NCBI RefSeq assembly: GCF_029937855.1
Contig: NZ_JAPYPC010000034.1
Coordinates: 1-38,431 of the forward strand
DNA from: Christiangramia sp.
GTDB taxonomy: Bacteria > Bacteroidota > Bacteroidia > Flavobacteriales > Flavobacteriaceae
Direction: 5' to 3'
DNA: 38,431 nucleotides
The notes under the pieces are model-generated. The model was not told the origin of the DNA and made no database searches. It was given only the letters and a program-made list of their open reading frames with translations. Below are positions 9,242 through 38,431 of the stretch, piece after piece. Every line of letters starts with the position of its first letter. The stretch's first letter is position 1. The position numbers and the translations under genes were made by a program.

Positions 9242-9592
9242 TTTTAATAATTTTAAGTAAAATCCAAAACAACATTCACGATGATCGCCAGAGGTTATTC
9301 TAGAATGAGTGCAAAATTAATCAATTTATATTATTGTACAAGGCTGTTAGTAAAAAAATCCCTTATGCCCGGATAAAGAAGCTAGACCGCTTCGCTTTTA
9401 GATATAAGAAATTAAACTCGAACTTAACTAACTAATAAACAAAAAAATTTGGGAATTGTTGTTTTCGAAAGATACTACAATTCAAAAAAATTGTAAAAGC
9501 AGGGTATAGATAGTAGGAAAATGCTTTGAAATTTTGAAAATATTGGGTTCAGATTAGTTCTTTAAAATTTTCATCAAACACCACTGTAAAAA
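9242..9592. other. Intergenic region between trmD and rplS
   Basis: These 351 bases hold no protein gene. They contain the rplS promoter (9312-9341), a weak 5-base-stem hairpin with arms GAAGC and GCTTC (9379-9394), and an AT-only 7-base inverted repeat (TACAATT/AATTGTA, 9476-9495). Neither hairpin is a convincing trmD terminator. Confidence 0.6.
9312..9341 (-). promoter_or_regulatory. rplS promoter, Bacteroidota type
   Basis: On the minus strand TTG (9341-9339) is followed after 19 bases by TAATTTTG (9319-9312). This fits the Bacteroidota -33 TTG / -7 TAnnTTTG consensus with normal spacing. It would give a leader of roughly 60-70 bases before rplS. Confidence 0.65.
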
Positions 9593-36050: not shown

Positions 36051-37703
36051 TTGCTTACATCTCTTTCCATTAAAAATTATGCGCTTATTGAAGATATCAA
36101 TATTGGTCTTCAATCTGGATTTACAATAATCACTGGCGAAACCGGCGCGGGTAAGTCTATTATGTTGGGCGCATTAGGCTTGTTGCTGGGTGATAGGGCC
36201 AATTTCAGTTCTATTCGGGATACGGAAAAGAAATGCGTAATAGAAGGAGTTTTTAGTATTTCTAATTATAAACTGGAGGATTTCTTCAAAAAAGAAGAAC
36301 TGGACTATGAGAAGCAAAGCATCATTCGAAGGGAGATTTTACCTTCAGGGAAATCGAGGGCTTTTATAAACGATACTCCCGTTAAGATTACCGCACTTCA
36401 AAAACTCGGTTCTTATCTAATCGATATCCATAGTCAGCATGAAACCCTAAGCCTGGGGAATGCCGATTACCAGTTTAATGTGATAGATACAATCGCTAAA
36501 AATGAATCGGTCATTATTCAATATAAAAAGGAACTAAAAGATTATAAACAACTTTTAAAACGCTTTGAGGAATTAAAAGAACAGCAATCACAGGCGGCTA
36601 AAGAGTATGATTATAACCTGTTTCTACTGAAGGAGCTTGAGGAAGCAAATTTAAAGGCCGGGATGCTTGAAGAGCTTGAAGAGCGTTACGAAGAGCTGAA
36701 CAATGTAGAAGAACTTACTGAAAATTTGAGCTCGGCCATTAATTTATTACAGCAGGAAGAAATTGGAAGTCTGGAAAGTTTAAAAGCCGTAAGGGCTAAC
36801 CTCTCCAGGATTTCGAAATTTTCTGCAAGTTATGAGAATTTCCATAATCGCATCCAAAGTGCAATAATAGAACTTGATGACCTTGAAGCTGAAATGACTG
36901 ATGCCCTGGAAAGGGTGGAAGCTAATCCTGAAGAACTGGAAATAGTAAATCAAAAGCTTCAGCTGATATATAATCTTCAGAAAAAACATAACGCTGAAAA
37001 TGTAGAAGAACTACTCGAAATAATAAATTCCCTTCAGGAAAAAGTTTCGGTAACCGAAAATGCGGAAGCTGCATTGACAGAAATTCAGGCTTCCATAAAA
37101 GATCAGGAGCAATTACTGGAGCAAACCTCGGAGAAACTTCATAAAAATAGAGAAAAGATCATCCCTGTTTTTATTGAGCAAACCGAACAAATTCTAAATG
37201 ATCTGGGAATGCCAAATGCCCGTCTCAATATTGAATTGGAACAGGGAATAGAGTTTCTTGCAAATGGCCGGGACAGGCTGGAATGGTATCTTGCCGCCAA
37301 TAAGGGAGGAAGTTTTAAGGAGGTAAAAAAAGCTGCTTCGGGAGGTGAATTATCAAGAATTATGCTGGCTGTAAAAAGTATTCTTGCCGCACAAAGTCAA
37401 CTGCCAACCATTATTTTTGATGAAATAGATACGGGAGTTTCTGGGGAGATCGCCAGGAAAATGGGGGAGATCCTGCAAAAAATGGGTGCGAATATGCAGG
37501 TAATTGCCATAACCCACTTACCTCAAATTGCGGGTAAAGGAGTTACACATTTTAAGATTTTCAAAGAGGATAACGAGGTAGCAACCCAAACGAAAATTAT
37601 CCAACTCGCAGAAGAGCAAAGAATAGAAGAACTGGCGTTAATGCTGGGAGGAAATACCAAAAGTGATTCGGCCAGGGCGCATGCCAAAGCATTGTTAAAT
37701 TAG
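36051..37703 (+). CDS. recN: DNA repair protein RecN
   Basis: This 550-residue SMC-like ATPase acts in double-strand break repair. The N-terminal half-site has LTSLSIKNYALIEDINIGL and Walker A GETGAGKS. A long coiled coil runs from about residues 150 to 375. The C-terminal half-site has the signature KKAASGGELSRIMLA, Walker B PTIIFDEIDTGVSGEIARKMG, and VIAITHLPQIA. The frame has no upstream ATG: an in-frame stop lies at 36003, and the family start MLxxLxIxNYALI aligns with the TTG at 36051, so I take TTG as the start. It is last in the bamD operon; a 214-base tandem repeat follows directly. Confidence 0.96.
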   Translation: MLTSLSIKNYALIEDINIGLQSGFTIITGETGAGKSIMLGALGLLLGDRANFSSIRDTEKKCVIEGVFSISNYKLEDFFKKEELDYEKQSIIRREILPSGKSRAFINDTPVKITALQKLGSYLIDIHSQHETLSLGNADYQFNVIDTIAKNESVIIQYKKELKDYKQLLKRFEELKEQQSQAAKEYDYNLFLLKELEEANLKAGMLEELEERYEELNNVEELTENLSSAINLLQQEEIGSLESLKAVRANLSRISKFSASYENFHNRIQSAIIELDDLEAEMTDALERVEANPEELEIVNQKLQLIYNLQKKHNAENVEELLEIINSLQEKVSVTENAEAALTEIQASIKDQEQLLEQTSEKLHKNREKIIPVFIEQTEQILNDLGMPNARLNIELEQGIEFLANGRDRLEWYLAANKGGSFKEVKKAASGGELSRIMLAVKSILAAQSQLPTIIFDEIDTGVSGEIARKMGEILQKMGANMQVIAITHLPQIAGKGVTHFKIFKEDNEVATQTKIIQLAEEQRIEELALMLGGNTKSDSARAHAKALLN

Positions 37704-37721
37704 AAGTGAAAAGTGAGAAGA

Positions 37722-37935
37722 GTCACTGCGAGCGCAACGCAGAGTAGCGCGGCAGTCTAATTTAATTCCAAAGCAAACACGAGATTGCTTCGCTTCGCTC
37801 ACAATGATTTCTGTTATAAGAACCTATGAACTCCACACTCCAAACCACGAACTCCGAACTACACGAGATTGCCAAGTTTCGTTTCACTCCACTCGCAATG
37901 GCAGGTAGAAGAGAAAAGTGAAAAGTGAAGAGTAA
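37722..37935. repeat. Composite repeat unit 1
   Basis: R1 is at 37723-37758, R2 at 37781-37807, the heptamer block at 37828-37862, R3 at 37865-37902 and the AAAAGTG linker at 37907-37935. It differs from the other units in R3 (GCCAAG in place of GCGTCG) and in GGCAGG near the R3 end. Confidence 0.9.
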
Positions 37936-38149
37936 GTCACTGCGAGCGCAACGCAGAGTAGCGCGGCAGTCTAATTTAATTCCAAAGCAAATACGAGATT
38001 GCTTCGCTTCGCTCACAATGATTTCTATTCTAAGGACCAATGAACTCCACACTCCGAACTCCGAACTCCGAACTACACGAGATTGCGTCGTTTCGTTTCA
38101 CTCCACTCGCAATGACAGGTAGAAGGGAAAAGTGAAGAGTGAAAAGTAA
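37936..38149. repeat. Composite repeat unit 2
   Basis: R1 is at 37937-37972, R2 at 37995-38021, the heptamer block at 38042-38076 and R3 at 38079-38116. Its heptamer block is the most regular, with GAACTCC three times unbroken apart from one ACACTCC. The middle (ATTCTAAGGACCAATG) differs from units 1 and 3. Confidence 0.9.
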
Positions 38150-38340
38150 GTCACTGCGAGCGCAACGCAGAGTAGCGCGGCAGTCTAATTTAATTCTAAA
38201 GCAAACACGAGATTGCTTCGCTTCGCTTACAATGATTTCTGTTCTAAGAACCTATGAACTCCACACTCCAAACCACGAACTCCGAACTGCATGAGATTGC
38301 GTCGCTTCGTTTCACTCCGCTCGCAATGACAGGTAGATGT
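38150..38340. repeat. Composite repeat unit 3, incomplete
   Basis: R1 is at 38151-38186, R2 at 38209-38235, the heptamer block at 38256-38290 and R3 at 38293-38330. The middle resembles unit 1, whereas R3 resembles unit 2. The AAAAGTG linker is replaced by unrelated sequence after about 38340. Confidence 0.88.
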
Positions 38341-38389
38341 GAGAAGTTTTCAACATTGTTTTTTTGAGAGCAATGAAAATTTTAATTTC

Positions 38390-38431
38390 TGATAACTGAT
38401 AACTGATAACTGATAACTGATAACTGATAAC
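38390..38431. repeat. Heptamer microsatellite (TGATAAC)6, running off the window
   Basis: Six perfect tandem copies of TGATAAC end exactly at the window edge and may continue. The reverse strand has no stop codon in any frame, because 7 is not a multiple of 3, and would read as a VISYQLS peptide repeat. Confidence 0.95.

Follow-up and report, generated by a model that had tools for sequence, protein, structure and literature searches.

Three tandem copies of a 214-bp composite of REP-like hairpins and heptamers behind recN in Christiangramia sp.

Introduction

How can a tandem repeat hold an exact long period when each of its units is itself a mosaic that contains slippage-prone heptamers? 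This question is raised by the DNA immediately behind recN in a draft genome of Christiangramia sp., for which the original prediction, made from the sequence alone, described three copies of a 214-base composite and proposed either recent duplication of the whole unit or a length under selection. The window analysed here is the whole contig C9 (38,431 bp) of this 3.9-Mb draft, which comprises 80 contigs.

Results

Anatomy of the array

TRF describes a tandem array at 37704–38337 that repeats a unit of 214 bp 2.96 times without indels (92% matches, score 1093), and a repeat search of the window placed the repeat starts at 37721, 37935 and 38149, i.e., 214 bp apart twice in a row. The three tandem copies and the exact period were thus confirmed, as was their position directly behind recN, whose product exceeds the cut-off of TIGR00634 (441.9 bits vs. 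407.85) and whose stop codon, ending at 37703, is immediately followed by the array. The features are as follows.

36051–37703, + strand: recN, DNA repair protein RecN (open reading frame; TIGR00634, PF02463)
37704–37720, + strand: first AAGTGAA-type heptamer tract and left end of the cassette described below (TRF array start, sequence)
37721–37934, + strand: unit 1, 214 bp, in the order REP A (+), REP B (−), GAACTCC-type tract, REP C (−), AAGTGAA-type tract
37935–38148, + strand: unit 2, 214 bp, 93% identical to unit 1
38149–38337, + strand: unit 3, truncated before the final AAGTGAA tract
37722–37758, 37936–37972 and 38150–38186, + strand: REP A, with an ACTGC/GCAGT stem, identical in all three units
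37782–37808, 37996–38022 and 38210–38236, − strand: REP B, of ATTGC/GCAAT type (27.0, 27.0 and 19.8 bits)
37866–37902, 38080–38116 and 38294–38330, − strand: REP C (29.4, 44.5 and 48.2 bits)
37906–37934, + strand: AAGTGAA-type tract at the junction of units 1 and 2 (sequence)
38120–38148, + strand: AAGTGAA-type tract at the junction of units 2 and 3 (sequence)
about 38338–38346, + strand: remnant of an AAGTGAA-type tract after unit 3 (sequence)
38042–38078, + strand: GAACTCC heptamer tract of unit 2 (TRF), its counterparts in units 1 and 3 being less regular
38345–38388, + strand: core, 44 bp (about 32 bp at contig C25), flanked by the AAGTGA tract and the TAACTGA array, with related sequences at further loci and in further species
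38389–38431, + strand: (TAACTGA)n array, at least 6.1 copies with 100% matches, running off the contig end (TRF)

Both unit junctions and the left end of the array lie within AAGTGA-type tracts, and the right end abuts the tract remnant. Over the first 190 bases, which were compared among the three units, the pairwise differences amount to 12, 12 and 14; the 19 variable sites are all singletons, with 5, 7 and 7 private changes per unit. None of them falls in REP A (37 of the 190 bases, p = 0.016) and three fall in the stretch from A over the spacer to B (88 of the 190 bases, p = 0.006). With a partition chosen post hoc and adjacent changes that may be single events, this sparing is at most a hint of constraint or conversion.

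As noted, no ordinary terminator is visible behind recN: between 37500 and 38431 the search returned none on the + strand and two terminator-like sites on the − strand, compared with a mean of 1.1 in shuffles. Unusual structure of the complete unit, as RNA or as DNA, was considered and rejected, its fold being no better than that of shuffles (z = −0.31 as RNA, 0.00 as DNA). At the Rfam gathering cut-offs, the sole match in the whole window is an L19-Flavobacteria ribosomal protein leader (RF03130, 43 bits) at 9270–9297 on the − strand, outside the array.

A family of REP-type hairpins

The unit had been described as three hairpin elements with two heptamer tracts, and both model hits and sequence agree with this. 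All nine hairpins of the array match one REP-like covariance model (GTCAYTGC...GCARTC), built from 20 variants, in the order A+ B− C− three times over; in every unit A and B form a pair with their tags outward. The composite is therefore a tag-outward REP pair with a third REP and heptamer linkers of GAACTCC and AAGTGAA type.

The REP stem consists of a 5-bp outer stem, a mismatch loop and a 2-bp apical stem, and its pairing is kept by compensatory change. Among 79 elements, the second pair of the stem is T-A 46 times and C-G 33 times, with no mixed pair, although the search pattern would have permitted one; these elements are not independent, since 33 of them come from the arrays of a single genome (G010). 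The remaining outer stem appears invariant because the pattern demanded those bases. In the apical pairs, which lay outside the pattern, changes on both sides were seen in sets of 15 and 17 sequences: seven both-side-changed cells in the former (0 of 500 shuffles as high) and four in the latter (17 of 500). The number of pairs changed on both sides was not above that of the shuffles (150 and 313 of 500 as high). The base before GTC gives CGTC in 28, AGTC in 20, TGTC in 19 and GGTC in 12 of the 79 elements, GTCA itself being part of the search pattern.

This short palindrome is repeated often and mainly between genes. At E ≤ 0.001, at least 64 matches were found in this genome (150 of 817 candidates were scored), and the family occurs in at least 19 of 24 genomes of the genus, with 0 to 111 matches per genome among those listed, and in at least 52 of 120 sampled genera of the family, each represented by one genome; all counts per genome obtained with the model are lower bounds. 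Orientation alternates and tandem reiteration is found, here as A+ B− C− three times and in G010 as a 96-bp array. Elsewhere in the genome, four of six gaps with exactly two REPs, of opposite orientation, read +−, and two (L216, L217) read −+.

Twenty REP-bearing gaps were examined in this genome, of which eight are codirectional, seven convergent and five open on one side, and all 20 adjoin a gene 3′ end. Divergent gaps are absent among them, as opposed to 46 of 223 background gaps (p = 0.012), and convergent gaps are enriched (7/15 vs. 26/223, p = 0.0015); these p-values are rough because the limits for open reading frames differ (at least 70 amino acids for background gaps, at least 100 for REP gaps) and because some of the REP loci were chosen for their likeness to the unit. 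A location at gene 3′ ends was likewise described for other REPs (Di Nocera et al., PMC3733652), and it fits tolerance at 3′ ends as well as a function there.

Heptamer tracts across the genome

A strong heptamer tract is present in three of four REP gaps and in two of 219 other gaps (p = 2e-5; denominators assembled by hand, two weak model matches in L171 excluded). When 13 gaps picked by the model are added, the count becomes 3 of 17 (p = 0.003); as none of the 13 gaps picked solely by model score carries such a tract, the link between REPs and heptamers is limited to some loci. A general 7-base periodicity of intergenic DNA was rejected, the mean at lag 7 (0.301) lying among those of the other lags (0.284–0.306). 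The tracts are discrete: in 438 kb, 14 windows have period 7 and eight have period 14, compared with 0–3 for any other period from 4 to 15, and no period-7 window was found in 47 loci of Winogradskyella and others. In Salinimicrobium, heptamer tracts of the GATCAGT, CTCAGTA and CTAATTG type occur without REP matches (L042, 3383–3951; L043, 3494–3964).

A dispersed cassette

The array lies in the leading part of a cassette of the form AAGTGA heptamers – core – (TAACTGA)n, which is dispersed over several loci. A 70-bp probe covering the AAGTGA tract, the core and the start of the TAACTGA array matches in 12 of 24 genomes, many of these matches being to the heptamers only; at least 60 of the 70 bases are matched in six genomes (G000, i.e., the present one, G003, G007, G011, G017 and G023). 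TAACTGA forms direct repeats between genes, with at least three in a row in 9 of 24 genomes. Our survey covered 20 places with three or more consecutive copies (19 fetched and the window). At 16 of them the upstream gene is in view and always points in the direction of the array; these represent eight distinct upstream genes, each codirectional with it. Among them are recN, prfA (before pyrF), a metZ-like gene (O-succinylhomoserine sulfhydrylase-like, before an rrf2 regulator), an aldehyde dehydrogenase gene and a DUF4199 gene; the other three, by sequence likeness, we take to be yqeY, an asnC-like gene and a gene before a gldF-like gene.

The 60 bases before the array were compared for 14 of the 16 flanks; the two dropped belong to the gldF-like locus (G003 and C23 of G011), where the flank of the cassette differs from that of other loci. 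Identity between loci within one genome averages 0.82 (n = 8; 0.67, 0.88, 0.67, 0.80, 0.80, 1.00, 0.98 and 0.72), compared with 0.70 (highest 0.82, n = 17) for the same locus between genomes or species, 0.67 (n = 66) for different loci of different genomes and 0.62 for shuffles. Loci of one genome being more alike than one locus across species, the comparison suggests within-genome copying or conversion of the cassette. The pattern is weaker for C25 of the present genome, whose flank identity to C9 and to C40 is 0.67, no higher than between species, and which reaches 0.82 with G007. Long stretches are shared between loci of G002 (247 bp at 96% and 89%), between loci of G007 (234 bp at 95%) and between C9 and C40 of the present genome (138 bp at 93%), and their edges are REP ends, heptamers or contig ends. 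REPs stand beside all three flanked copies here (C9, C25, C40) and beside all three in G002, and beside none of the ten copies in G001, G003, G007, G011, G013, G017 and G023.

Ten contig ends lie in TAACTGA arrays (C9, C10, C27 and C40 of the present genome; C5, C12, C13, C14 and both ends of C17 in G002). The arrays are thus probably longer than assembled, and they break drafts of the genus.

The recN-fabI gap in relatives

In the original prediction recN closed a core operon, for which the relatives give no support: there, fabI comes next on the same strand. In the present genome fabI lies on contig C10, the end of which is the same kind of TAACTGA array as that of C9. From these two ends and from the gene order of the relatives, we infer that C9 and C10 are very probably neighbours and that fabI follows the recN array. 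By eye, the sequence before the fabI start is similar here and in the relatives.

The gap measures 45–49 bp in nine loci of Salinimicrobium and 68–158 bp in nine of Salegentibacter, all 18 being devoid of REP matches. The Christiangramia gaps span 87–782 bp (13 of 15 loci, those where fabI was found), and five of the 15 recN loci have REPs in the gap, one of them weak (L026, E = 0.0014). Within these 15 stretches, each of at most 9.65 kb, all 12 REP matches and all eight strong heptamer windows lie behind recN, which makes the gap a gathering place of repeats in those stretches. At the recN loci L020 and L021 of other Christiangramia, REPs occur with a short TAACTGA stretch of fewer than three repeats.

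RecN matches assign the window to Christiangramia (formerly Gramella). Among the records compared, from which some very close to the window may be absent, the best RecN relative is that of C. sediminis (91%). At the recN locus of this species (L016), AAGTGA tract, core and TAACTGA array are all present, without a REP match; the AAGTGA tract has therefore either acquired REPs or lost them. Between the two recN genes 108 of 175 four-fold sites are changed, so that the array, with a divergence of 6–7%, is much younger than the split of the species.

Composites of other lengths

The search of this and related genomes with one 214-bp unit that the original prediction had suggested returned the full unit at this locus only, with no second locus among 24 genomes of the genus, and pieces of it in 8 of the 24. 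Absence of any related elements elsewhere, which would have counted against the prediction, does not apply, the REP relatives being numerous.

Other amplified composites have other periods. In the same genome, C40 carries two copies of a 151-bp composite, likewise with AAGTGA-type tracts at its junctions and ends, and C62 carries 2.2 copies, at 98%, of a 260-bp composite (L012, 680–1265; C62:130679–131264) without strong heptamer tracts (best 12 of 21). The content of the latter is other hairpins (GTCAT.TCGACCAAAGGGAGAGATCTC type) and one +/− REP pair. In G010, REPs of ATTGC and ACTGC type alternate with a period of about 96 bp (C20:4220–5896, L137; TRF rows of 3.2 and 14.4 copies, double period 189). 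Composite periods of 93–96 bp were found in G004, 86 bp in G009, 97 bp in G013 and 103 bp (4.0 and 2.5 copies) in the single-contig genome G063.

With periods of 151 and 260 bp in the same genome and 86–97 bp in relatives, no common length is kept, and 214 bp is therefore not a selected length: this half of the original prediction had to be abandoned. The exact long period is as expected from duplication of the whole composite. Here the prediction is supported, with a unit unique to this locus in the 24 genomes and copies 6–7% apart; its word "recent" holds in a relative sense, each copy having collected 5–7 private changes.

Discussion

Taking these results together, we favour, with a rough probability of 0.62, an explanation in which a BIME-like composite was amplified to three tandem copies between heptamer tracts, inside a dispersed cassette that is tolerated at gene 3′ ends. 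If the bounding AAGTGA tracts misalign while the DNA is replicated or recombined, the whole stretch that they enclose would be duplicated or deleted, which could yield exactly 214 bp. Such unit duplication could proceed by unequal recombination or by replication slippage, aided by hairpins that stall replication, and the locus of C. sediminis is what a deletion between the tracts would leave. Heptamer tracts are not always required, since the composite on C62 was amplified without strong ones. The cassette itself may spread or be homogenised via copying or gene conversion and would persist where gene 3′ ends tolerate insertions. Should the array influence the recN mRNA or read-through to fabI, this would be a by-product.

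A functional 3′ element is the next option, though a doubtful one. In place of a terminator, the transcribed hairpins could block exonucleases or reduce transcription that continues from recN into fabI, an essential gene. The constant position of REPs at gene 3′ ends in the gaps examined, the lack of a terminator-like site on the + strand, the covarying stem pairs and the sparing of REP A and of the A-spacer-B stretch (post hoc) would all be in line with such a role. However, ten of the 15 Christiangramia recN loci, that of the nearest relative included, have no REP match, nor have the 18 loci of Salegentibacter and Salinimicrobium; the unit folds no better than shuffles, and the similar sequence before the fabI start is retained (by eye) here and in relatives.

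It appears unlikely that a transposase of RAYT (Y1) type moved and multiplied the REP units. Alternating REP pairs and tandem BIMEs are proposed RAYT products (PMC2817692), and across 24 genomes the numbers of REP and Y1_Tnp matches correlate (Spearman 0.58, p = 0.003). Yet, unlike RAYT-associated REPs, which flank a Y1 transposase gene, no REP of the present family (E ≤ 0.01) was found near any of the 11 Y1_Tnp genes, which are distributed over 8 of the 24 genomes (2.2–3.6 kb around each), so that RAYT as a neighbour of these REPs was rejected. Moreover, the most REP-rich genome (at least 111 matches) has no Y1_Tnp match, and CGTC repeats without a RAYT neighbour are likewise described (Di Nocera et al., PMC3733652). 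One Y1_Tnp gene of the present genome (C59:203454–203663, in C59:202000–204166, L142) is flanked on both sides, by eye, by a CGCGATNNNATCGCG-like palindrome, which looks like a separate REP family.

Equally improbable is a reading in which the cassette as a whole is a mobile element that encodes no protein. It would insert after stop codons, always in the same direction, would extend its heptamer tail with every move, perhaps via an RNA copy transcribed in the same sense as the upstream gene, and would carry the REPs as passengers, among which the 214-bp array would have been amplified within the cassette.

An assembly artefact, i.e., a wrong copy number or a false join, is very improbable: the draft has 80 contigs and contig ends in TAACTGA arrays recur in it and in G002, but 19 of 190 sites vary among the copies, the contig runs on beyond the array and breaks later, in the perfect TAACTGA repeat, and composite arrays occur in other assemblies, including the single-contig G063, although further identical copies may have been collapsed.

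Comparison with known systems

The array itself is of a known kind. With the BIMEs of E. coli it shares the mosaic of oppositely oriented REPs in tandem, those elements, described as binding sites of gyrase, IHF and Pol I, belonging to another REP family (PMC2817692). CGTC-tagged REPs, which have CGTC, TGTC or CCTC at their terminus and among whose hosts the Bacteroidetes are named, form dimers that mostly have their tags outside (HH), as A+/B− do in all three units; their stem of 8–9 bp with a loop of 4–5 differs from the 5 bp with an internal mismatch loop found here, the post-stem bases are CCA rather than CTC/CTA (by eye), and the heptamer linkers set the Christiangramia array apart from the CGTC REPs as described in the sections compared (Di Nocera et al., 2013; PMC3733652). 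Since its stem departs from this definition, we term the family CGTC-like and do not count it as a member. REP candidates in Bacteroidota, including two Flavobacterium species, were reported with RepRanger, in the part compared as counts, with no cassette or heptamers (PMC12306157).

The heptamer of the cassette is identical to the TAACTGA repeats of MacGregor (2015; PMC4679880). Gramella forsetii was described there with two TAACTGA sets, alongside other heptamers and forward relative to the downstream gene, and Elizabethkingia anophelis with two nearly identical repeat regions; a role in rearrangement was suggested, and no mechanism of transfer was evident. A shared core, REP content and within-genome homogenisation in Gramella are not described with these repeats in the sections of that paper compared here. 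Heptameric repeats of Xanthomonas and Nostoc are likewise intergenic, have exactly 7 bases and vary in length and sequence between relatives; unlike the present ones they are G-rich and quadruplex-forming, with no REP composites described in the text compared (PMC4692102). Another non-coding repeat of the Bacteroidota with an internal tandem array, from Porphyromonas gingivalis, is a MITE with a minisatellite and terminal inverted repeats (PMC4596501).

The less familiar part is the surrounding cassette: for AAGTGA – core – (TAACTGA)n, the available text of the open-licence literature searched gave no description. REP arrays and TAACTGA heptamers, which the publications compared describe apart from each other, are here joined in one cassette at several gene ends. 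The array exemplifies how an exact long period can arise by duplication of a composite and not by selection on length, and the cassette gives the TAACTGA arrays a concrete unit that can be traced between strains.
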